Shown: piece by piece, positions 50,794-64,000 of the stretch | Numbering within the stretch: the first letter of the stretch is position 1 | How the letters are laid out: every line of letters starts with the position of its first letter | DNA from: an uncultured Opitutia bacterium | GTDB taxonomy: Bacteria; Verrucomicrobiota; Verrucomicrobiia; Opitutales; Opitutaceae | Reading direction: 5' to 3' | NCBI GenBank assembly: GCA_903834135.1 | Contig: CAILHZ010000016.1 | Span: forward strand, 62,001 to 126,000 | Length of the DNA stretch: 64,000 nucleotides | Notes under the pieces: generated by a model | Database searches by the model: none | The model's input: only the letters and a program-made list of their open reading frames with translations | What the model was told of the DNA's origin: nothing | Program-made: the position numbers and the translations under genes

Positions 50794-52134
50794 TTGAATC
50801 AATCTTCGTCTCAACCTTGGTGGCGCGAGCTGAACAGAACACACTGGCTGGTCTTTGCAACAGCCTGTGCCGCGTGGTTATTCGACTGTCTTGACCAGCA
50901 ACTCTTCAACTTAGCACGCGATGCGGCTATGGATGACTTGGTTATCGATAAAGCAAGAGCTGCAGAATTTGCATCCTACACAACATCGATATTTTTGTTA
51001 GGTTGGGCAGCTGGAGGTCTTACCCTTGGCGCATTAGGGGATCGATACGGACGAGCACGCATGCTCACCGTATCTGTACTCATTTATTCTGTATGCACCG
51101 GTCTTAATGCCTTTGCTTCAACATATACTCAATTTTGCGCTTATCGTTTTATTACAGGAGTAGGTATTGGTGGCGTATTTGGTCTATCAGTAGCATTGAT
51201 CGCTGACTCTTTGCCAGATCGCAGCAGATCTCCTGCCCTAGTTTTACTTCAATCGCTTTCGGCTGCTGGAAATATATCAGCTGCCTTTTTAGGGATGTAT
51301 ATAGGCTCCTCAAAGGCACTCCTATTTGGTCTGCATCCATGGCAAGCAATGTTTGTATTAGGAACAATCCCAGCTTTTATAAGTGTCTTTGTTCTATACC
51401 GAATTAAAGAACCGATTAAATGGGTAGAAGCGAAGGCAGCGGGTATTAAAACTGGAATACGATTCGGATCCTACTTTGTACTCCTAGGTAATAAAAAATG
51501 GAGAACTAACGCACTACTAGGACTAGCTATATGTAGTGTGGGTATCATTGGCCTTTGGGGTATTGGAAATTTCCATCCACGTATTGTTCGCTCGGTAGTT
51601 GAGCAACATTTAGCAACCAAACATCTCTCCGATACACAAATGGCGAGTGCAAAGGCGTATTGGAGTTCTGTAGCAATGCTTCTGCAAAATATTGGAGCTT
51701 TTTTTGGGATCACAGTGCTGGCTAAATTTGCAGAAGCAAAAGGAAGAAAACCTGCTTTTACTCTAGCACTAATTCTATCTTTTATAGCTACCCTTATGGT
51801 ATTTAAAGGCCTTAGAGAGTTTAACCAAATATTCTGGATGATTCCTATTATGGGATTTTGCCAGAACTCCATTATGGGACTTTATTCAATTTATCTTCCT
51901 GAACTTTTCCCGACAAGCCTAAGGAGTACTGGTACAAGTTTCGCCTATAACTTCGGCCGTATCGCTGCCGCTAGCGCTCCTTTCACGATCGGTGTTATTA
52001 CACGCAGTCTAGGAGGAAATATTGAGGGTTTTCGCACAGCTGGAAGCTGGGTAAGTTTAATTTTGTTTGCCGGTCTATTTATAGTTCCATTCTTGCCAGA
52101 AACTAAAGGCTTACCTTTACCTGAAGAAAATTAA
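50794..52134 (+). CDS. MFS transporter (sugar or organic acid:H+ symporter type)
   Basis: The 446-residue protein has 12 membrane helices. The loop 2-3 motif is GALGDRYGRARM, and the loop 8-9 counterpart is AEAKGRKPAF. The N-terminal HWLVFATACAAWLFDCLDQQLFNLA and RFITGVGIGGVFGLSVALIAD resemble aromatic-acid or metabolite symporters. The start is TTG at 50794; a stop lies in frame upstream and no ATG is available. Its stop is 2 bp from the PVC cytochrome ATG, so they form one operon and the transporter may carry the oxidation product. Confidence 0.88.
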   Translation: MNQSSSQPWWRELNRTHWLVFATACAAWLFDCLDQQLFNLARDAAMDDLVIDKARAAEFASYTTSIFLLGWAAGGLTLGALGDRYGRARMLTVSVLIYSVCTGLNAFASTYTQFCAYRFITGVGIGGVFGLSVALIADSLPDRSRSPALVLLQSLSAAGNISAAFLGMYIGSSKALLFGLHPWQAMFVLGTIPAFISVFVLYRIKEPIKWVEAKAAGIKTGIRFGSYFVLLGNKKWRTNALLGLAICSVGIIGLWGIGNFHPRIVRSVVEQHLATKHLSDTQMASAKAYWSSVAMLLQNIGAFFGITVLAKFAEAKGRKPAFTLALILSFIATLMVFKGLREFNQIFWMIPIMGFCQNSIMGLYSIYLPELFPTSLRSTGTSFAYNFGRIAAASAPFTIGVITRSLGGNIEGFRTAGSWVSLILFAGLFIVPFLPETKGLPLPEEN

Positions 52135-52136
52135 TC

Positions 52137-54692
52137 ATGCGCATTATTAGCATTCTCTTTGCACTGTTACTTGGGACATCCCTACACGCACAATTAGGAG
52201 ATACCCTTGATAAACCAGGAGTCATCCAAAGCTCTTTAGTGCCAAAATCACTGATACCGCCTGCGATACCACTATCACCGAAAGAGGCTTTAAAGTCATT
52301 TAAAGTACAAAAAGGCTATCATCTCGAACTCGTCGCTAGTGAACCACTTATTGAAGATCCTGTAGCTATTCAATTCGGTCCTGATGGACGGTGCTGGGTT
52401 GTAGAATTACGTGGATACATGCTCGACTTTGATGCAACAGGAGAAGATATGCCAACGGGCCGCATAGTGGTGTTATCGGATCGCGATGAAAACGGTCAAT
52501 ATACAAAAAGTACCGTATTCGTTGATAATATTATAATGCCTCGAGCACTTCAGTTAGTCGCAGACGGAGTACTTGTAGGAGCACCACCGTACCTTAAATT
52601 TTGGCGTGACTCCAACGGCAAAGGCAAAGCTGACTCTGGACTTCTAATTGCAGATGATTTCGGAATTCAAGTTGATCCAAAAAGACCTGAATTAGCAAAT
52701 CCAGAGCGATCCCCTAACAGTATGCTTTGGGCACTCGATAATTGGATATATAGTGCAGGTTACACAAAAAAATTTAAGTACTTTAAAGGCCAATGGTCCA
52801 CAGGACAGACAACCTTTCGTGGAGAATGGGGCTTAAGCCAAGATAACTTTGGTCATCTGTATCATAATTCAAACAGCGACCAACTTAGAGCAGATGTCAT
52901 CCCTTCTCTTTATCTAGGAAGAAATCCAAACTACTCTAGGGCTTTAGGAACTAATGTCTTGGTGGCAGAGAATCAACTTGTCTGGCCGATACGTGTCACA
53001 CCAGGAACAAACCGGGCATATCGTCCCGAGACTATGCGCGATGGAAAATTAAAGGAGTTCACGGCAGCGTGTGCACCTTGGATATACCGTGCTAGTGACT
53101 TGCCTGCAGAATTCTACGGCAATGCGTTTGTATGCGAACCGGCAGCTAATCTAATCAAGAGAAACATCGTATCGTATCCTAACGGAACAGTTGCCTCAAA
53201 GGAGGCGTATTTTAAAGAAGAGTTTATAGCATCTGTAGATGAAAGATTTAGACCAGTAAATCTTACAACAGGGCCAGACGGAGGACTCTACATTGTTGAT
53301 TTTTACCGAGGTCTAATTGAAGACAAAATCTCCTTAACAAGTTACTTAAGAAGCCAAGCCGAAGATCGCGATTTAACAAAAAATCCGCACATGGGACGCA
53401 TTTACCGTGTTGTAGCCGACAATCAGAAGCCTAAAGCATTCCCGAGGTTAGATCTTGAATCAACCACACAATTAGTTGCCGAATTATCAGAAACAAATGC
53501 ATGGAGAAGCGAAACTGCACAGCGCTTACTCATCGAAAAAGCTGATGATTCAATTCTTCCACTGTTACGTCATCAAGCGCTATATGATTCATCAGCGTCA
53601 GGTCGTCTACATGCATTATGCACACTCGAAGGCTTATCTGGCTCTGATAGCTCCACCCTGACTGGATGCTTAAGAGATCCAGAAGCGTATGTACGCACTG
53701 CAGCTTTAAGAATAAGTGAACCGTTATTAAAAGGTGGACAAAATTCCGAACTTTTAGCTGCTGTACTCAAATTAAAAGATGATCTATCCAACGAAGTTCA
53801 ACAACAACTCGTATTAACCCTGGGTGAAATAGGAGATCTTAAGCTTGATCTAGTGAGTGCTTCGATAGCAAAAGCTAATCCAAATAATACATACATTCTA
53901 GATGCTTTATTTTCAGGAATTTATGGACGCGAATACGCGTTACTTGATGCACTTGTAAAAGATCCATCGTTTAAGGAAGCAACGCTTCAGAATCATAAAA
54001 TTATAAGTGGTTTAGCTAAAGGCACGACAAATTCTCGTAACACTCAGAATGTAACTAAACTTATCTTACTTACCTCAATAAGTAATGAATTTCAGAGCCA
54101 AGCCATGATTGAAGGAATTGCTTCCTCAACTGAAGTATCTCCATTAAAGCAGCTCACATTACCTAACGAATCTCCTGAACTTATATCGATTGTAGAAAGA
54201 ACTAATCCAACAACAAAGACTGCGTTGAATCGAATTAATCGATCAATTGTTTGGGCAGGTAAAAAAGGAGCTATTGCTGCTTATGTCCCTCCAGCACTCA
54301 CCTCTGCAGAGCAAAAACGTTTCGAGACTGGCCGCACACTCTTTACTGGAACGTGTAGCGCATGCCATCAAACACACGGTAGAGGGCTAGAAGGTTTAGC
54401 TCCACCACTCGCTGAATCTGAATGGGTAAATGGCCCTGCAACACGCATGATACGTGTGGCAATAAACGGGGCGCATGGTCCGATCAAGGTAGCAGGACGA
54501 TCGTACAATCTAGACATGCCTCCGTTTGGAATCCTGAGTGACGAACAAATCGCTTGTATTCTCACCTATGCAAGGCGTGAGTGGGGTAATACCGGGACAC
54601 CTGTAGATACAGGGCTAGTAACACAAATTCGTAAAACAATTGGCGATCGTAAAGAACCTTGGACTCAACCTGAATTACTTAAAATTAAGTAA
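52137..54692 (+). CDS. PVC-type dehydrogenase with C-terminal cytochrome c domain
   Basis: The 851-residue protein has a signal peptide (ISILFALLLGTSLHAQ), a beta-propeller dehydrogenase-like domain (about 45-420, GYHLELVASEPLIEDPVAIQFGPDGRCWVVELRGY, NSNSDQLRADVIPS), HEAT-like repeats (430-690) and a cytochrome c domain with CSACH (740-744) and MPPFGILSDEQIACILTY. This arrangement belongs to proteins described from Planctomycetes/Verrucomicrobia as membrane-bound dehydrogenase plus Pirellula-type heme domain. It probably oxidises a sugar in the periplasm. A close paralogue lies at 55852. Confidence 0.88.
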   Translation: MRIISILFALLLGTSLHAQLGDTLDKPGVIQSSLVPKSLIPPAIPLSPKEALKSFKVQKGYHLELVASEPLIEDPVAIQFGPDGRCWVVELRGYMLDFDATGEDMPTGRIVVLSDRDENGQYTKSTVFVDNIIMPRALQLVADGVLVGAPPYLKFWRDSNGKGKADSGLLIADDFGIQVDPKRPELANPERSPNSMLWALDNWIYSAGYTKKFKYFKGQWSTGQTTFRGEWGLSQDNFGHLYHNSNSDQLRADVIPSLYLGRNPNYSRALGTNVLVAENQLVWPIRVTPGTNRAYRPETMRDGKLKEFTAACAPWIYRASDLPAEFYGNAFVCEPAANLIKRNIVSYPNGTVASKEAYFKEEFIASVDERFRPVNLTTGPDGGLYIVDFYRGLIEDKISLTSYLRSQAEDRDLTKNPHMGRIYRVVADNQKPKAFPRLDLESTTQLVAELSETNAWRSETAQRLLIEKADDSILPLLRHQALYDSSASGRLHALCTLEGLSGSDSSTLTGCLRDPEAYVRTAALRISEPLLKGGQNSELLAAVLKLKDDLSNEVQQQLVLTLGEIGDLKLDLVSASIAKANPNNTYILDALFSGIYGREYALLDALVKDPSFKEATLQNHKIISGLAKGTTNSRNTQNVTKLILLTSISNEFQSQAMIEGIASSTEVSPLKQLTLPNESPELISIVERTNPTTKTALNRINRSIVWAGKKGAIAAYVPPALTSAEQKRFETGRTLFTGTCSACHQTHGRGLEGLAPPLAESEWVNGPATRMIRVAINGAHGPIKVAGRSYNLDMPPFGILSDEQIACILTYARREWGNTGTPVDTGLVTQIRKTIGDRKEPWTQPELLKIK

Positions 54693-54697
54693 TTAGG

Positions 54698-55855
54698 TTA
54701 CTGGGAAGCAGGCACGGCAACCATATCTAGGCCAAAATTAACACCTGGCCTAGCAAAAGCTGAGACTCCTATAGCTGAGGCTGCAGGAGCTCTTAAGGGA
54801 TCAAAATACACTCCACGTAAATCACTTAATGCGGTGCGTACTTTAGGATCACCTACATAGTAGGTTGCTTTGACTAGATTGCGGTAGCTTGAACCTGAGT
54901 AGTAAAGTACAGAGCCTAGTCTCTCAAATACACGTAATAATTGTTCAGTTGAGCTGTTGATTAGATCCGACTGGATTTGCCCCACAAAAATTAGTGGTGT
55001 ACCTGCTTTAACACGAACAAAGCTGCTATACCTCGGTGATTTGTGAAGCCATGGGAAATACCAATATGTTACAGATTCAGTATCTGTTGGTATCAGATAT
55101 CCCGAGGCCACCATTTCGATTTCGGCTGGATAATCACCAATCCACTCAATAAAAACTACCGGCGGAGCAGATCCATTAAAGGCCAATTCAATTTCATGAA
55201 TAATATCAGCATGATTTAAACCAGGTTTAATAAATGCCTTAAGTTGTACACAATCTTTTGGAGCTAATCCTAAGTGCGTTAGACTACGTGTAAGTCCAAT
55301 TAAGGTTAAACGAATAGCCGCCATTGGATCAGGGCCTTTTTCAGCTTGGCCAGAGATAAACACTTTAGCTCCCTTAGGAAGAATAGATGCATTGACGTCT
55401 ATTCGCGTTACTTGACTTACGCTTGTGTCTGAAACAGCGACTGCTTCACAACAAAGAAGTGCCTTTTCATTAGAAAGCTGTGTTCGAACGATCGTAACTG
55501 CAGGCATTACGCCTGAAAACTGTCGTTTAATTTCTATATCAAGTAAATCAAGCTGCAGTTCATTTGTAATATAAAACGTTAACCTGACCACGTGCTGAAG
55601 ACTGCTACCTGACTTAACTAGTTCAGACTTTAGTTCTGTAATTAAAGAACTGGACTGTACTGCACTGTCATGATCGAGATTGTTTGGATAAATCTGGCCA
55701 GTAAATACGAGCGGTAGATCAGCCACACGTACTGCATCTGCCCCTACATTACCGGCTTGAGTAAAGCGGTGTAGAGATTCCTTACTTTCTACATTTTTAC
55801 TGCAACCGATAGTTATCAACCAACCATATGCAGCTAGTAATAAAATTCTTTTCAT
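54698..55855 (-). CDS. Lipoprotein with three tandem RidA/YjgF-like domains
   Basis: The ATG at 55855 gives 385 residues with signal LLLAAYGWLITIGC and lipidated Cys18. Three RidA-like domains follow: about 40-142 (DLPLVFTGQIYP...CCEAVAV), 149-253 (AKVFISGQAEKG...IEMVASGY) and 270-382 (GTPLIFVGQIQSD...LDMVAVP). The catalytic Arg of RidA (in PARSCVEV) is replaced in all three (V120, V233, A359), and only domain 2 keeps the Glu (E245). It is therefore unlikely to be a standard imine deaminase. It overlaps the preceding PVC cytochrome by 4 bp (ATGA). Confidence 0.82.
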   Translation of the reverse strand: MKRILLLAAYGWLITIGCSKNVESKESLHRFTQAGNVGADAVRVADLPLVFTGQIYPNNLDHDSAVQSSSLITELKSELVKSGSSLQHVVRLTFYITNELQLDLLDIEIKRQFSGVMPAVTIVRTQLSNEKALLCCEAVAVSDTSVSQVTRIDVNASILPKGAKVFISGQAEKGPDPMAAIRLTLIGLTRSLTHLGLAPKDCVQLKAFIKPGLNHADIIHEIELAFNGSAPPVVFIEWIGDYPAEIEMVASGYLIPTDTESVTYWYFPWLHKSPRYSSFVRVKAGTPLIFVGQIQSDLINSSTEQLLRVFERLGSVLYYSGSSYRNLVKATYYVGDPKVRTALSDLRGVYFDPLRAPAASAIGVSAFARPGVNFGLDMVAVPASQ

Positions 55856-58458
55856 TTTGCCGCAGTATCTAATTGAGCTAACTCGGTATCGGTCCACGCA
55901 TTTACCCGACTTACAATAATACGGCGCATAAGCGCTACATCCGCTGGATTAACCGCTGAAGCATTATTACCAAAAGAACGTCTTACATAGGTAAGAACTC
56001 CAGCCAGTTGCTCATCAGACATTGAAGCTAAAGGCGGCATAGCGGCTGGTAAACCAGGAGTCCCTTCTTTACCTTTAAGTACAATACGTATTGCTGAATC
56101 AGCTGAAACAGCATTTGCCCAACGACCCTCTTTTAAAGCAGGCGCAACTCCAGCTTTGCCTAAACCATCAGGCTGATGACATGCAGCACAAAGACCATAG
56201 GTAACACCACCTTGATCGAATAATTTCTTTTGCTCTATAGTTAATGCAGCCACAGGCGGTCTCGCTGCTTTTCTAGCTAATCGTACACGAATAGATACTG
56301 CCATCGACTTAGCCTTATCACGTACGATTACATCAGGTGAATGCACAGCAATTTCTTCTAGTTTATCCGCACTTAGCACTACACCTGAGATTTTTGTAGC
56401 ACCTGCAAATAAAGCAAAACGCGCCGATTGAGGCAGTGTAGTATCACATAATGCTGAAGTAAGGGCCTGCACACCCTCTTTGCCTGAAACAATAAGATGA
56501 ACAGATAAATCCTCAAGCAGTGGAGACGATCCAAACAAGTTACCATGGTTAGCATGTATTAAGGATTCAATTCTCGCGAGAACCTCTGTCTCATGACCAC
56601 GCAAGCCAATCAGAATACTATCATTAATTGAAGGATGCTCATTTGCTCGCGCTAATATCGACCACAATAAATTTAAAGATGAAGAATCTGAAGTACCAGA
56701 TAAACTGAGTGCAATTTGCGTAAGTACAATCGGAGTCTCACTCTCTACGCGCTCATTTAACTTTTTAATTAGAGCTACACCATCGGATGAACGTAAAATT
56801 GCTTCCCCAGTCTGAATAGAAGCAACACGTACATGTTCATCCATATCGTTAATTCCGATTTCAAGATCCTTTACTGATATAAGTCCTAATCCTTCAAGAC
56901 ACCAAAGAGCAGAAACACGATCTCTTGGTAATGTAGCGTGCGATAAGCGCTCTCTTAATAATAATCCAAAGGCTGGATCATGTGATTCAACGATTAATCG
57001 CTGTGCAGTATCACGCGTCCAACCATTCGAATTCTCTAAAAGCGATATAAGCTGCTCATGTGAAGCATGTGTAAAATCTGGAGTTTTTCCAAGTGTGCCC
57101 TTGTCGTAAACAATTCTATAAATACGTCCCATCCCCCAGAGTGGACTATTCAGTCTTCTATCGAGAATTTGGTTTTTTAAGTAAGTTGTAGCAAACTGAT
57201 AGCCTTCAAGCATACCACGATAATAATCTACTACATATAATGCTCCATCAGGCCCATTTGCTGTATAAACAGGTCTAAAGCGCTCATCTGTTGATGTCAG
57301 GAAATCTATTCCTTGGTATGCATTAACAGCACTTAAACGACCTTCAGCCTCTACAATAATATCTCGCTTAACGAGATTACCTGCAGGTTCTGGAACAAAG
57401 GCATTCCCATTAAAACTCTTGGGAAAATTATCTCCGCGATATATAACAGGTGCAGATGCAGCCGTAAATACAGCCAAGGTTGCATCAGCACGTAACTGAG
57501 CTTTCTGGTATCCTCGATTTACACCAGGTGTAGGACGTGAGGGCCATGTGGATTGATCTGTAGCGATTTGAAAATTCGATCCGTAAAGCGGAATGCGACG
57601 ATCCTGTTTTGCGGCATAATGCGAAGGTACAAAATCACCACGTAATTGATCACTGTTAGAATCATAAAAAAGTCTCCCAAAATCATCTTGTGAAATGCCC
57701 CATTGCCCAAGAGCTGGCATTGGTTCTTTTTTCCATACACCTGCAAATTCCCTCCAGCGTAATTTGTAACTGGCATTATAAAGCCAATTATCACGACCCC
57801 ACAAAAGTCCGTTAGCGCTAGCCTCTATATTTTCAGGAGTGCCGTAGTCATTAGCTAAGAGTACTTTTTCGTGCATGCGTCCATCGCCAACCGTATCCTT
57901 TGTTAACCATAGATTTGGTGGATCACCCACAACAACTTGATCTCGAACAAAAGCTATCGCACGAGGTACATTCATATGATCCCAGTACACAGTCCTTTTA
58001 TCATAAACACCGTCGTGATGCGTTGATTCTAAGTAAACAACTCTACCGTCAGGCCGATCAGGCAGGGGCTTACCTTTTTCTAAATATATAGGGAGCTCTT
58101 TAATTATCTCAGCATTATAGGCACCTAATTCTGCAACCCAAAGTCTTCCACGTGAATCAAACGCCATCATCACGGGATCGTGAACCATGGGTTCTGATGC
58201 AACTGCTTCAATATGAAAGCCAGGCGGTAATATAAAAGTCTTGAGTGCTTCCTGCACCGATAGCGCCTCTTTAGTAGGCAACATGATATCAGGATTTGGC
58301 GGTCTTTGAGCCTCATCGTTTGGATGATCGCCAAGCTGGGCTAAAGCTAAAGTACTGCCCTTAAAAATTAAAATAAGTGCAAATAAATAGTTGGGCCAGA
58401 AACGCCATTTAATGGTCTGCATGAGATAATATAAAGATACTTTTAAACTAATTCCCAT
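55852..58458 (-). CDS. PVC-type dehydrogenase with C-terminal cytochrome c domain
   Basis: This 868-residue paralogue of the gene at 52137 has a hydrophobic signal (FWPNYLFALILIFKGSTLALAQ) and the same order: dehydrogenase propeller (GFHIEAVASEPMVHDPVMMAFDSRGRLWVAELGAY, SNSDQLRGDFVPSHY), HEAT-like repeats and a cytochrome c domain with CAACH (757-761) and MPPLASMSDEQLAGVLTYVRR. The start is ATG 58458 (AGG 6-8 bp upstream) or M13 at 58422. Its stop overlaps the triple-RidA lipoprotein gene, so the two are probably made together. Confidence 0.88.
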   Translation of the reverse strand: MGISLKVSLYYLMQTIKWRFWPNYLFALILIFKGSTLALAQLGDHPNDEAQRPPNPDIMLPTKEALSVQEALKTFILPPGFHIEAVASEPMVHDPVMMAFDSRGRLWVAELGAYNAEIIKELPIYLEKGKPLPDRPDGRVVYLESTHHDGVYDKRTVYWDHMNVPRAIAFVRDQVVVGDPPNLWLTKDTVGDGRMHEKVLLANDYGTPENIEASANGLLWGRDNWLYNASYKLRWREFAGVWKKEPMPALGQWGISQDDFGRLFYDSNSDQLRGDFVPSHYAAKQDRRIPLYGSNFQIATDQSTWPSRPTPGVNRGYQKAQLRADATLAVFTAASAPVIYRGDNFPKSFNGNAFVPEPAGNLVKRDIIVEAEGRLSAVNAYQGIDFLTSTDERFRPVYTANGPDGALYVVDYYRGMLEGYQFATTYLKNQILDRRLNSPLWGMGRIYRIVYDKGTLGKTPDFTHASHEQLISLLENSNGWTRDTAQRLIVESHDPAFGLLLRERLSHATLPRDRVSALWCLEGLGLISVKDLEIGINDMDEHVRVASIQTGEAILRSSDGVALIKKLNERVESETPIVLTQIALSLSGTSDSSSLNLLWSILARANEHPSINDSILIGLRGHETEVLARIESLIHANHGNLFGSSPLLEDLSVHLIVSGKEGVQALTSALCDTTLPQSARFALFAGATKISGVVLSADKLEEIAVHSPDVIVRDKAKSMAVSIRVRLARKAARPPVAALTIEQKKLFDQGGVTYGLCAACHQPDGLGKAGVAPALKEGRWANAVSADSAIRIVLKGKEGTPGLPAAMPPLASMSDEQLAGVLTYVRRSFGNNASAVNPADVALMRRIIVSRVNAWTDTELAQLDTAAK

Positions 58459-58543: not shown

Positions 58544-59452
58544 GTGAGAGGCTTATTCGATATTCAAGTTAATGGGTACGCTGGAATCGATTTTCAGCGC
58601 GAACCCACACAACAGCAAATCCGTCATGCTTGTGATAAATTAAAGGAACACGGCACTGATCGCATACTCGCTACCTTTATCACAGACAAACCAGGGTCTT
58701 TTGAGTTAAAACTTAAAACGTTTGAGTCCTACCGCAAAGCAGACCCCGTAATCAAACAAATGATCGTGGGGTACCATTTAGAGGGACCTTACTTAAGTGC
58801 TGAACCAGGTTTTTGTGGTGCGCACCCCGCAGAGTTAATGAAAGACCCGTCAATTGCTGAATTCAAAGTATGGCAAGATGCAGCAGGTGGTTCAATCAGG
58901 CTAGTAACTTTAGCACCAGAGAGACCAGGATCGTTTGATTTCATATCTGAACTTACACGCTCAGGTGTTCGTGTTTCGCTTGGTCACACAAACGCTTCTG
59001 AAGAGCAAATTGATCTATCGATCAAAGCAGGTGCTACTTTATGCACACATTTAGGTAATGGATGCCCTGCTCTACTACACAGGCACGATAATATCATACA
59101 AAGACTGGTTGCACGCGATGAACTTACGGCATGCTTCATCCCTGACGGTATTCACTTACCTCCCCACGTTCTTAAAAATTTATATAAAGTAAAACCTGCA
59201 TCTAAAGTTATTATTACTACTGATGCGATGGCAGCGGCAGGAGCTGTTCCAGGCAAATACAGTCTTGGCCATCTTGAAATGGAAGTAGGCGAAGATCATG
59301 TAGTAAGAATGCCAGGTGCTAAGACTTTTGCAGGCAGTGCACTAACACTTAATAAAGGCGTAGAAAACTCCGCACTTTGGCTCGGTCTCTCCTCTGCGCA
59401 AGCAATTGATCTAGCATCGAAAATTCCAGCACACGTTTTAGGCTATTCTTAA
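58544..59452 (+). CDS. NagA-like amidohydrolase without the usual beta-domain
   Basis: The 302-residue protein is the TIM-barrel core of N-acetylglucosamine-6-phosphate deacetylase: GLFDIQVNGYAGIDF, GYHLEGPYL (metal Glu), SLGHTNAS (His), THLGNGCPAL (His), IPDGIHL and ITTDAMAAAG (catalytic Asp). It begins where NagA normally enters the barrel, and lacks about 50 N-terminal residues and the C-terminal return of the beta-sandwich. The GTG start is fixed by a TAA 9 bp upstream. It would deacetylate an amino-sugar phosphate, or a related substrate. Confidence 0.85.
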   Translation: MRGLFDIQVNGYAGIDFQREPTQQQIRHACDKLKEHGTDRILATFITDKPGSFELKLKTFESYRKADPVIKQMIVGYHLEGPYLSAEPGFCGAHPAELMKDPSIAEFKVWQDAAGGSIRLVTLAPERPGSFDFISELTRSGVRVSLGHTNASEEQIDLSIKAGATLCTHLGNGCPALLHRHDNIIQRLVARDELTACFIPDGIHLPPHVLKNLYKVKPASKVIITTDAMAAAGAVPGKYSLGHLEMEVGEDHVVRMPGAKTFAGSALTLNKGVENSALWLGLSSAQAIDLASKIPAHVLGYS

Positions 59453-59457
59453 GATTC

Positions 59458-60450
59458 ATGAAAACACCCCAATTCACATTTGCATCTATTTTCATCTTAC
59501 TGCTTTCAGCGACCCTAGGCTTCGCAGAGCCCGAGCTTAAAATTGGAGTTATTGGTCTAGATACATCACATGCTATTGAATTTGCTAAATTATTTAATGA
59601 TCCAGCAGATGAAAATCATATACCTGGCGCACATATCGTATGTGCATTTCCAGGAGGTAGTCCCGACGTAGTCTTGAGTGCTAGCCGCGTTAAAGGTTTT
59701 ACAGAACAGATGCGTACAAAATATGGTGTTAAAATAGTTAGCACCATTGATGAAGTCGTAAAAGCAAGTGACGCTATTATGATTTTAAGTGTCGACGGGC
59801 GCACTCACCTAGCTCAAGCCAAGCAAGTATTTGGTTCCGGTAAACCTGTTTTTATTGATAAGCCACTAGGTGGAAATTTAGCCCAAGTACTCGAAATTAC
59901 AGAACTAGCGAAAAAAACAGATACTCCTTTATTTAGCGCCTCATCACTTCGCTACACATCGGGTTTGGCAAAATTAAAGACACAAAAAATTGGTCGTATG
60001 CTTGGGGCGATTTCTTATGGCCCTGCTCATATAGAACCCCATCACCCAGATTTGTATTTTTATGGCATCCATGCCACTGAAGCACTTTTCACTTTAATGG
60101 GTCCGGGTTGTATTTCAGTTAGCAGAACTCACACTCAAGATAGCGATGTTGTAACAGGAGTGTGGAAAGACGGAAGAACAGGCGTAGTTTACGGATTCCG
60201 TGAGGGAAAATCAGTATACCGAGTTACAGTATTTGGAACAAAAGGCGTTTACGATCAAGAAGACGGTAAAGATTATTCGGGATTAATTACACACGTCTTA
60301 ACCTTTTTTAGAACTCGGGTATCGCCAGTGCCTATAGCCGAGACAATAGAAATTATGGCGTTTATGGAAGCTGCCGATACTAGTAAGAAACTAGACGGGA
60401 AATCCGTGTTACTATCAGAGACCTTAGCGGAAAATACTCCTAAGCAATAA
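59458..60450 (+). CDS. Exported Gfo/Idh/MocA-type oxidoreductase
   Basis: The 330-residue protein has a Sec signal peptide (FASIFILLLSATLGFAEPE) followed by a Rossmann fold, KIGVIGLDTSHAIEFAKLFND, of a Gfo/Idh group where the GxGxxG is loosened to GVIGLDTSH. DKPLGGN replaces EKP with the catalytic Lys kept. An exported member should carry tightly bound NAD(P), as known for glucose-fructose oxidoreductase. It follows the NagA-like gene by 5 bp and faces the isomerase gene. Confidence 0.82.
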   Translation: MKTPQFTFASIFILLLSATLGFAEPELKIGVIGLDTSHAIEFAKLFNDPADENHIPGAHIVCAFPGGSPDVVLSASRVKGFTEQMRTKYGVKIVSTIDEVVKASDAIMILSVDGRTHLAQAKQVFGSGKPVFIDKPLGGNLAQVLEITELAKKTDTPLFSASSLRYTSGLAKLKTQKIGRMLGAISYGPAHIEPHHPDLYFYGIHATEALFTLMGPGCISVSRTHTQDSDVVTGVWKDGRTGVVYGFREGKSVYRVTVFGTKGVYDQEDGKDYSGLITHVLTFFRTRVSPVPIAETIEIMAFMEAADTSKKLDGKSVLLSETLAENTPKQ

Positions 60451-60478
60451 GGTATAAAGCCACTAGGCTTTATATACC
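60451..60478. terminator. Convergent hairpin between oxidoreductase and isomerase
   Basis: GGTATAAAGCC (60451-60461) pairs with GGCTTTATATACC (60466-60478) with a 2-nt bulge and 4-nt loop. It spans the gap and runs into the stop codon of the minus-strand isomerase gene. There is no long U-tract, so termination is likely but not certain. Confidence 0.5.
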
Positions 60479-61354
60479 TAAATCTTTGCGGATTTCATTC
60501 ATCATAACAGAAAACATCTTTCCGTATCGGATATATGATTCTCTTCTGACTTCAGGTGTAGCCTGAGGAGCACCCGCATGAATGATACTAGCTACATGAG
60601 GTTCAATTGTAATTGAGCCACGGTAACCCGATTTAAGTAAATTAGTTAAGATTCGCCTAACTTCTGCATCTCCTTCTCCTGGCATCGTAAAGAGGGAGCT
60701 CTTACCACCCGCTGGATTTTTCTTACAGTCCTTCACATGCACGTGATTAATAAATGGCTTAACAGCATTATAATAATCCCAGGCGTCGAGTCCGTAAGCC
60801 ACGGTGTTCCCGATATCAAAAAGAACTCCCACCGAAGGATGATTTACACGCTCATGAAATTCTTTTGCATGCGCAGGACTTAAACCACCCCATCCTTCAC
60901 AATTTTCATGAAGTAAGGTGATTCCTCCCTCAGCGGCTAATGTTGCAAGAATCTTATATCTTCTGATGGACTCATCACGCCACGCATCAAGACTTACATC
61001 ACCTCTTACCCAACTCATTGTCCTGATGAAAGGAGTACCCACGCGCTTCATGCGTGGAATAACTGCCTTAAGTTCACTCTCATCTAATGAAAAGTCTCCA
61101 GTAATAGGTCTACTCCAATTACCTATACTTGATGCAAATGCAGTCACACGCATTGCTGCCTCATCTAGCTTGAGTGCAACATCTTCAAATTCAGAATCAG
61201 TAATTTGCCAGGATGTTTGTTTACCACCCACTAATCTCAACTCTGTAGCATTCCAGCCAATAGCCTGATTTGCACTGATTTGCCCTAGCAAATCATCCGA
61301 TGCCTCATCAGCAAGTCCAGAGAGAGTAAGTGCAGCAATAGGTAACCTATTCAT
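60470..61354 (-). CDS. Sugar phosphate isomerase/epimerase (xylose-isomerase-like TIM barrel)
   Basis: The 294-residue cytoplasmic protein has the AP_endonuc_2-type barrel. Metal ligands are seen in LLHENCEGWGG (Glu), VGVLFDIGNTVAYG (Asp), INHVHVKDCKKN (His) and ITIEPHV (Glu). Such enzymes epimerise or isomerise sugars, inositols or keto-sugars. The upstream neighbours, exported oxidoreductase and amidohydrolase, suggest catabolism of an oxidised sugar. The substrate is unknown. Confidence 0.85.
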   Translation of the reverse strand: MNRLPIAALTLSGLADEASDDLLGQISANQAIGWNATELRLVGGKQTSWQITDSEFEDVALKLDEAAMRVTAFASSIGNWSRPITGDFSLDESELKAVIPRMKRVGTPFIRTMSWVRGDVSLDAWRDESIRRYKILATLAAEGGITLLHENCEGWGGLSPAHAKEFHERVNHPSVGVLFDIGNTVAYGLDAWDYYNAVKPFINHVHVKDCKKNPAGGKSSLFTMPGEGDAEVRRILTNLLKSGYRGSITIEPHVASIIHAGAPQATPEVRRESYIRYGKMFSVMMNEIRKDLGI

Positions 61355-62440: not shown

Positions 62441-64000
62441 TTAGAATGTAAGTGTATTAGTCCACACCCATTGGCGAGGAATACCATTTATTGTACCAAT
62501 GAGTGGTCCAACCCAACCTGTTGTTGGATTAGGTAAAATAAGCACTCCATAGTGATTAAACATGTTATTGATATTTAGCTGACTAGATATTGGAAGCTTA
62601 CCTAATTTCCATGAATAACCTGCAATCAAATTAAAGGTGGTCATGTTAGGTAGCATATATACCGTACGTCCCGCCTTAGTAGGATCAGCCGCAACGCCAT
62701 TTGGATAATAATAAAATCCTCTATTTTGCCTACTTAAAGATAAAGTTCCACCAAGCCTAATACCTTTAGTAAAGCCCTGATCAAACGAATACATTGCCGT
62801 AGCGATTGCACTATACTTTGGATAACCAACCGTTTTATCGCCTGCAATGGATACCGGAATTATACCAGGAGGAGGTATTATGGCATTAGGAGCAATTTGT
62901 AACTTGGATATAGGAAGTCCGTTTGCTCCAGTTAAAATAGCTCCATGCACAGGATCGATTTGTTGAAGTACATACCTAAGGGATGTATTGCCAATAACAG
63001 AGGTTATGAGTGCTGGTTGGGCGTAATACGGACTCGTTGTCGTATTCATCATAGCAATCGTAAGCGGTATCGCACCTGCTGTTGTCGATGCTACAACTGG
63101 AGTCTTTGAATTGTACGTTGGTAAAACGTACACGGGAGTACCGTCAGCATAGGTTACATTTCCTGCAGCATTTGCGTTAAACTGATCGTTATAAAGCTGA
63201 CCGTATGAAACATTACTTCCAATCGTACCGTCAGTCTCCGCGGCTGAGATTCTAATCCTTATGTTTTTAGTAGGAGCTGCAGTAAATACTGCCTGCACGC
63301 CTTGACTCTTACGATCAACGTTAATGTATACGCTTGCATTGCCATAACCACCATTTAAGCCAGCTGTAGGGTTAATATCTAATTCTAGCGTACTTGTTAT
63401 AGCATACTGCTCGTTACTGGATTGCGTTGCAAAATATGCGATTGTGCCCGAATAACGACCATCAGGTGTTGATAACTTTATACCTGTCTCGGCACCAAAT
63501 CCTTTAGCAGTTAATGGAGGATTACCATAAGGGTCGTTTGCTTGAGCAACTGGAGGATTATACGAGTCAGAACCATTAACATACATATGCAAAGTTTTGC
63601 TCAGTTCATAACTCATACCTAAGCTAAAACTTGTTGGTTTTTGTTTAATAATCACCGTTGCTTGATTGTCGGTGCTGTTTTTTGGAGGTACCGCTGCTCC
63701 TTGATTCATCTGCTCGCGGTAGAAATTCTGCAGACGAATTCCGGATAATATTTCTAAGCGATCATTGAAAAGTGATAGCGTATTAGCTGCAAAAATAGCT
63801 GAAGAAATTGTATGCCGAACGAGATATCCGCGACCACCAAGCGCAAGTCCAAGTGGATTATTAAGGGACATCTTGTTCTTATCAGAAATATTACCTTGCT
63901 GTCTTACGTAGGTGTTACCTGCATACGTAATTACATTTTGGAAAGGCTTCCAAAGCGGATCCTTAATCGGTCCATTTTGCACAGTCCACACTTCACGTAC
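62441..64000 (-). CDS. TonB-dependent receptor, 5' end beyond window
   Basis: The minus-strand frame stays open to the right edge (V-R-E precedes the internal GTG at 63991), so the N-terminal signal and plug are missing. What is seen is a receptor barrel of more than 515 residues: RLEILSGIRLQNFYREQ, SFSLGMSYELSKTLHMYVNGSDSYNP, GAETGIKLSTPDGRYSGTIAYF, LNINNMFNHYG and a C-terminal aromatic (TNTLTF). The style is of the large Opitutae TonB receptors. It is separated from the amidohydrolase gene by a terminator. Confidence 0.87.
   Translation of the reverse strand, partial: VREVWTVQNGPIKDPLWKPFQNVITYAGNTYVRQQGNISDKNKMSLNNPLGLALGGRGYLVRHTISSAIFAANTLSLFNDRLEILSGIRLQNFYREQMNQGAAVPPKNSTDNQATVIIKQKPTSFSLGMSYELSKTLHMYVNGSDSYNPPVAQANDPYGNPPLTAKGFGAETGIKLSTPDGRYSGTIAYFATQSSNEQYAITSTLELDINPTAGLNGGYGNASVYINVDRKSQGVQAVFTAAPTKNIRIRISAAETDGTIGSNVSYGQLYNDQFNANAAGNVTYADGTPVYVLPTYNSKTPVVASTTAGAIPLTIAMMNTTTSPYYAQPALITSVIGNTSLRYVLQQIDPVHGAILTGANGLPISKLQIAPNAIIPPPGIIPVSIAGDKTVGYPKYSAIATAMYSFDQGFTKGIRLGGTLSLSRQNRGFYYYPNGVAADPTKAGRTVYMLPNMTTFNLIAGYSWKLGKLPISSQLNINNMFNHYGVLILPNPTTGWVGPLIGTINGIPRQWVWTNTLTF

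Follow-up and report, generated by a model that had tools for sequence, protein, structure and literature searches.

An Opitutaceae contig encodes an exported protein, here called RID3, that holds three RidA-fold domains in a single chain. Arg105 of RidA is missing from all three domains, and only the middle one has an invariant Glu120. We read RID3 as an exported pseudo-trimer that is not a RidA-type deaminase, that keeps one site, and that takes part in the periplasmic catabolism of an amino-sugar-like compound, a joint reading to which we give an even chance. The window (the whole stretch of 64,000 nucleotides that was analysed) contains the gene and its parts as follows.

54698..55855, minus strand: RID3, 385 amino acids, exported, with three RidA-fold domains (open reading frame and translation; PF01042, E 1.2e-18; homologues)
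55802..55855, minus strand: RID3 predicted signal peptide with lipobox ITIG-C, residues 1-18 (lipobox pattern; pLDDT <50 at residues 1-25)
55418..55774, minus strand: RidA domain 1 (D1), residues 28-146; position 105 is V120, position 120 is C135; pair R91/E137 kept
55088..55414, minus strand: RidA domain 2 (D2), residues 148-256; S168-G169-Q170 and E245 kept; position 105 is V233; pair K206/E247
54701..55075, minus strand: RidA domain 3 (D3), residues 261-385; position 105 is A359 (invariant Ala), position 120 is G375; pair K329/D377

In the list of open reading frames the RID3 frame starts 14 codons upstream, at a GTG. From the ATG start the protein begins with the signal peptide MKRILLLAAYGWLITIGC, whose lipobox is followed by a cysteine (ITIG-C), as in bacterial lipoproteins. 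Nearly all RID3 homologues have a hydrophobic N-terminal segment, mostly an ordinary signal peptide, and the lipobox pattern was found in the window copy, where it is clearest, and in L054, L070 and L039. The initial annotation had described a lipoprotein; this holds for the window copy and fails as a trait of the family, in which the lipobox is not conserved. Membrane anchoring is likewise no trait of the family. A promoter and terminator scan of the RID3 locus gave no signal above chance. Composition is even across the locus and thus does not indicate recent foreign DNA.

The proposal of three RidA-fold domains in one chain was confirmed by profiles, alignments and structure prediction. PF01042 matches the window protein in two stretches (Pfam, E 1.2e-18) and its homologue L061 in three, and it matches 21/21 members of an alignment of RID3 homologues. 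In the AF2 model the strand and helix order of RidA (a b-b-a-b-a-b-b domain) occurs three times, at residues 28-141, 150-251 and 262-380, which together with the PF01042 profile places RID3 in the RidA/YjgF fold superfamily. The model reaches a pLDDT of 88.7 and a pTM of 0.88, and that of a second family member 90.4 and 0.89. When domain profiles were compared, D1 and D3 were linked with 97.6% probability, D1 and D2 with 77%, and D2 and D3 with 20%. D2, in the middle, thus stands apart from the other two.

We take the equivalents of AtRidA K136 to be the basic residues found in 28/28 sequences in each domain. The equivalents of AtRidA E182 are acidic in 27/28 (D1), 28/28 (D2) and 28/28 (D3). 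In AtRidA the K136-E182 salt bridge joins subunits and is needed for assembly (PMC4960622). Additionally, the acidic Glu122 position at the trimer interface, two past Glu120, is kept in all three domains of the window protein. A confident predicted fold (pTM 0.88-0.89) and a charge pair kept in every domain make a single-chain pseudo-trimer likely, so that RID3 would probably pack in the closed manner that the initial annotation had put forward.

Foldseek matched full-length RID3 to chorismatases and AtzD-type enzymes, with TM scores of 0.19-0.27 and rmsd of 16-21 A. RID3 domains are therefore placed unlike those of the matched enzymes; a TM below 0.3 is about the value expected from one superposed domain, and the RID3 domains would either run in the opposite order round the axis or differ in arrangement in some other way. 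By element order, the chorismatases (FkbO 4bps; 5a3k, 5ag3) are the best full-length match and cover all three domains, but the sequence link is weak (4bps, E 0.014), only about one domain superposes (TM 0.24-0.27, rmsd 16-18 A), and the genomic setting differs. Membership of the chorismatases was rejected for want of a profile match and of superposition at these TM values. The cyanuric acid hydrolase/barbiturase AtzD, of the Toblerone fold, likewise has three YjgF-like units per chain, and its active site lies in a central barrel with Ser-Lys dyads (PMC3758960). Membership of this family was also rejected, as PF01042 alone matched RID3 up to E 1 and TM was 0.19-0.26. That RID3 is a hydrolase or lyase with a repurposed site, as in chorismatases or cyclic amide hydrolases, gains some weight from both being its best full-length Foldseek matches and from both having left imine chemistry behind as single-chain proteins akin to YjgF (PMC3758960). 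With TM below 0.3 and no Pfam match to either family, however, we consider such an enzyme improbable.

To define which RidA residues are retained, we counted them in 28 sequences, namely window RID3 and its homologues, mostly 24-48% identical to the window copy. Arg105, a defining residue of the RidA imine deaminases, is absent from 84/84 domains. Its position is Ala without exception in D3, V/F/L/Y/A in D1 and L/I/V/A in D2. The initial annotation had noted the replacement of Arg in all three domains; this is so in the window (V120, V233, A359) and extends to 28/28 sequences. It had also assigned the Glu to the middle domain only, which is correct for the window (C135, E245, G375) and for the family: Glu120 is found in 28/28 in D2 and 0/28 in D1 (Ala in 25/28), and in D3 the residue varies. 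D2 retains Ser30-Gly31-Gln32 (27/28, 28/28, 27/28), D1 retains it in part and D3 has lost it. D3 has conserved residues of its own, S360, R347 (27/28) and Y276, the last at the position of Tyr17, which is aromatic throughout (Tyr in 16, Phe in 12).

It is highly improbable that RID3 is an ordinary imine or enamine deaminase able to work without the Arg. Serine does replace this residue in ~10% of RidA proteins, but an Arg-to-Ala exchange in RidA nearly abolishes activity (both from PMC4433059), and not one of the 84 RID3 domains has the Arg.

In RID3, conservation clusters on two faces, the Glu face in D2 and the Arg face in D3. These faces can be read together because in TdcF and AtRidA each site is split between adjacent subunits, with Arg105 and residue 107 coming from one and Glu120 from the next (PMC1884159, PMC4960622). 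The pattern suggests that RID3 has one composite site, formed where the D2 Glu face would meet the D3 Arg face. Thus stated from the alignment, one of the three inter-domain clefts is probably kept as a working site, with S168, G169, Q170 and E245 on the Glu120 side of D2, and A359, S360 and Tyr/Phe276 on the Arg105 side of D3; R347 would lie nearby.

The same residues bear on whether RID3 might be a non-catalytic binding or scaffold protein, with a fold retained to pack and to hold a partner or ligand. Arg is lost in all three domains, Glu120 is replaced in two of three, and the invariant Ala at the D3 Arg position is what a binding surface would predict. Against this, S-G-Q and E-I-E in D2, and A-S in D3, are conserved more strictly than packing requires. 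Glu120 of TdcF also bonds across the subunit interface (PMC1884159), so conservation in D2 is not decisive on this point. We regard a scaffold as unlikely, though it deserves more weight than a tolerant deaminase.

Proteins with three RidA domains in one chain have been named before, as 3x-RidA, and presumed to be covalently linked trimers (Niehaus et al. 2015, PMC4433059). RID3, with three tandem-fused RidA domains, has this architecture, as does EF_0115 of Enterococcus faecalis. However, that text files 3x-RidA in the RidA subfamily, whereas RID3 carries an export signal, has no Arg105 in any domain, and scores 39.2 bits on TIGR00004, below the cut-off of 106.25; from EF_0115 it is distinguished by the description given there. 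RID3 also differs from 3x-RidA in sitting in an Opitutaceae catabolic locus. Rid4-Rid7 resemble RID3 in having the RidA fold without Arg and with Glu kept (in RID3, in D2 only), and their function is unknown (PMC4433059). The portion of that paper used here does not describe them as exported or as fused triplets, and RID3 is both. It gives Trp at the Arg position of Rid4 and Rid7, in contrast to V/F/L, L/I/V and A in the three RID3 domains. Relative to 3x-RidA and Rid4-Rid7, what appears new in the RID3 family, judged from sequence, is its export, the absence of Arg from each of the three domains and a Glu kept in one.

Long RID3 matches were found in ~21 of 200 genomes of the window's family, and full-length RID3 was found in 0/10 other genomes of its genus. 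The relatives with names come from Opitutaceae, from other Verrucomicrobiota MAGs and from one Planctomycetaceae contig (L069). A phylum-wide draw recovered RID3 in 1/388 genomes, namely the window's own. The family is therefore narrow, with the Planctomycetaceae contig as an exception. A search of a plasmid collection with RID3 returned 0 matches. In the tree, window RID3 pairs with L050 (94/91) on a long branch. The RID3 copies of L045, L047 and L048 are disrupted by a frameshift or stops, through MAG error or decay, and the cytochrome gene next to the disrupted copy of L045 is likewise disrupted. The window genome has one other PF01042 protein, at L106:1489-2148, on the contig of RID3 and ~30 kb away from it, which retains a PAR-like Arg and Glu.

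RID3 is flanked on both sides by genes for PVC-type cytochromes.

55852..58458, minus strand: PVC-type cytochrome (PF23500 DUF7133, HEAT-like, cytochrome c CxxCH), ATGA overlap with RID3
52137..54692, plus strand: second PVC-type cytochrome, convergent with RID3, as also in L050 and L062

The RID3 start and the stop of the upstream cytochrome gene share an exact ATGA at 55852-55855, so the overlap reported at the outset is real. The partner is exported, with a C-terminal CxxCH domain, and is of PVC type by TIGR02604 and PF23500 (165.5 bits against 122.2, and 291.8 against 27). The ATGA overlap is common to the window and G025/L050 only, and the gene order of the latter equals that of the window (MFS-cytochrome-RID3-cytochrome-NagA-GFO). 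In G043/L062 a convergent cytochrome lies beside RID3 and the other side is lost at the contig end, and in G195/L045 the order is reversed, with a cytochrome following RID3. The remaining RID3 loci have no cytochrome within the stretches read, and the two nearest cytochrome homologues after that of G025 (G154, G139) do not adjoin RID3. A cytochrome lies within 5 kb of RID3 in 4/19 genomes against 1.05 expected (P 0.02); with 6-65 PF23500 genes per genome, this is just weakly above expectation.

These counts bear on the proposal that RID3, as a pseudo-trimer anchored in the membrane, binds what the adjoining cytochrome dehydrogenase produces but does not deaminate it. The overlap in the window and L050, the adjacent and independent pair of L045 in reverse order, the lipobox of the window copy and the loss of Arg all speak for it. 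Around most RID3 homologues, however, the stretch read contains no cytochrome, the enrichment is weak (P 0.02) among so many PF23500 genes, and the lipobox is not conserved. We hold this role to be improbable. The conserved linkage to PVC cytochromes that had been anticipated did not materialise, with most homologues lacking a cytochrome, and linkage as a family trait was rejected, since few loci share the pair. The two cytochromes may have joined the RID3 locus in the window lineage. One overlapping gene pair can thus hint at a partnership that is absent from relatives.

The wider locus contains genes of a catabolic type.

50794..52134, plus strand: MFS transporter, nearest families aromatic acid/H+ and sialate:H+ symport (below cut-offs)
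58544..59452, plus strand: NagA-like deacetylase, scoring 201.9 bits where the cut-off is 225.65, with profile positions 1-56 left unmatched
59458..60450, plus strand: GFO/IDH/MocA oxidoreductase with a signal-peptide-like N-terminal stretch
60470..61354, minus strand: xylose-isomerase-like TIM barrel, PF01261
61414..62352, minus strand: amidohydrolase, PF04909, Tat-like N-terminus
62441..64000, minus strand: TonB-dependent receptor, continuing past the window; whole gene L104:5442-8519

Past the window edge follow a NagB-like gene (113 bits against a cut-off of 236.9), a LacI-type regulator and a PF04734 ceramidase-like hydrolase (G000:C16:129579-130955). This PF04734 gene lies 12 kb from RID3, within the same gene run. 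A PF04734 gene was found within 5 kb of RID3 in 7/19 positive genomes, where 0.24 would be expected (P 7e-9), the seven cases representing three genera whose genomes are not independent. About half of the RID3 loci have no PF04734 gene within the stretch read, in some cases because the contig ends. Close homologues of the PF04734 protein occur in 15/21 RID3-positive and 10/179 negative genomes (P 9e-12), and those of the cytochrome in 12/21 and 15/179 (P 4e-7), with both P values inflated by phylogeny and lifestyle. Additionally, TonB receptors, TetR, GFO/MocA, TIM-barrel isomerase, and NagA- and NagB-like genes recur at RID3 loci.

Other genes were seen around the PF04734 and RID3 genes. Directly after the PF04734 gene of the window genome lies a sulfite-oxidase-like molybdopterin protein (PF00174 and PF03404; L104:11989-13209, G000:C16:130988-132208) with a signal-like N-terminus. 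In L042, L043 and L068, which belong to one genus, a second PF04734 type and a heparinase II/III-like protein with CxxCH come after RID3, and in 2/3 of these loci a DegT/DnrJ aminotransferase lies in between. Near RID3 in L051 and L045, recurrent genes encode sodium:solute symporters and another ceramidase-like protein.

The NagA-like, NagB-like and MFS neighbours, all below their cut-offs, point to an amino-sugar-like substrate, a class read from the neighbouring genes. A precedent is the RidA protein OngD of Pseudoalteromonas, which is essential for the use of oxidised chitin sugars in a role that is unknown; in contrast to RID3, it is a single domain of 127 amino acids and is discussed among cytoplasmic steps (PMC9537276). 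In the pathway we envisage, a TonB receptor would feed a PF04734 amidase-like hydrolase, followed by an exported GFO/MocA oxidoreductase, a TIM-barrel isomerase, and NagA- and NagB-like steps. RID3 would most likely bind, isomerise or hydrolyse a small periplasmic intermediate arising from this exported catabolism of an amino-sugar-like compound. Going further, RID3 could be an exported RidA-fold enzyme with one asymmetric active site, made up of the D2 Glu and the Arg side of D3, in an undescribed periplasmic pathway that oxidises and rearranges an amino sugar or N-acyl sugar before uptake; this more specific version is speculative, and we think it rather unlikely to hold in full. Rid4-Rid7 are without known function, and the RID3 triplet may offer a handle on the RidA fold without imine hydrolysis, one that would combine a single site, one key residue (E245), a candidate substrate class and a recognisable catabolic locus.
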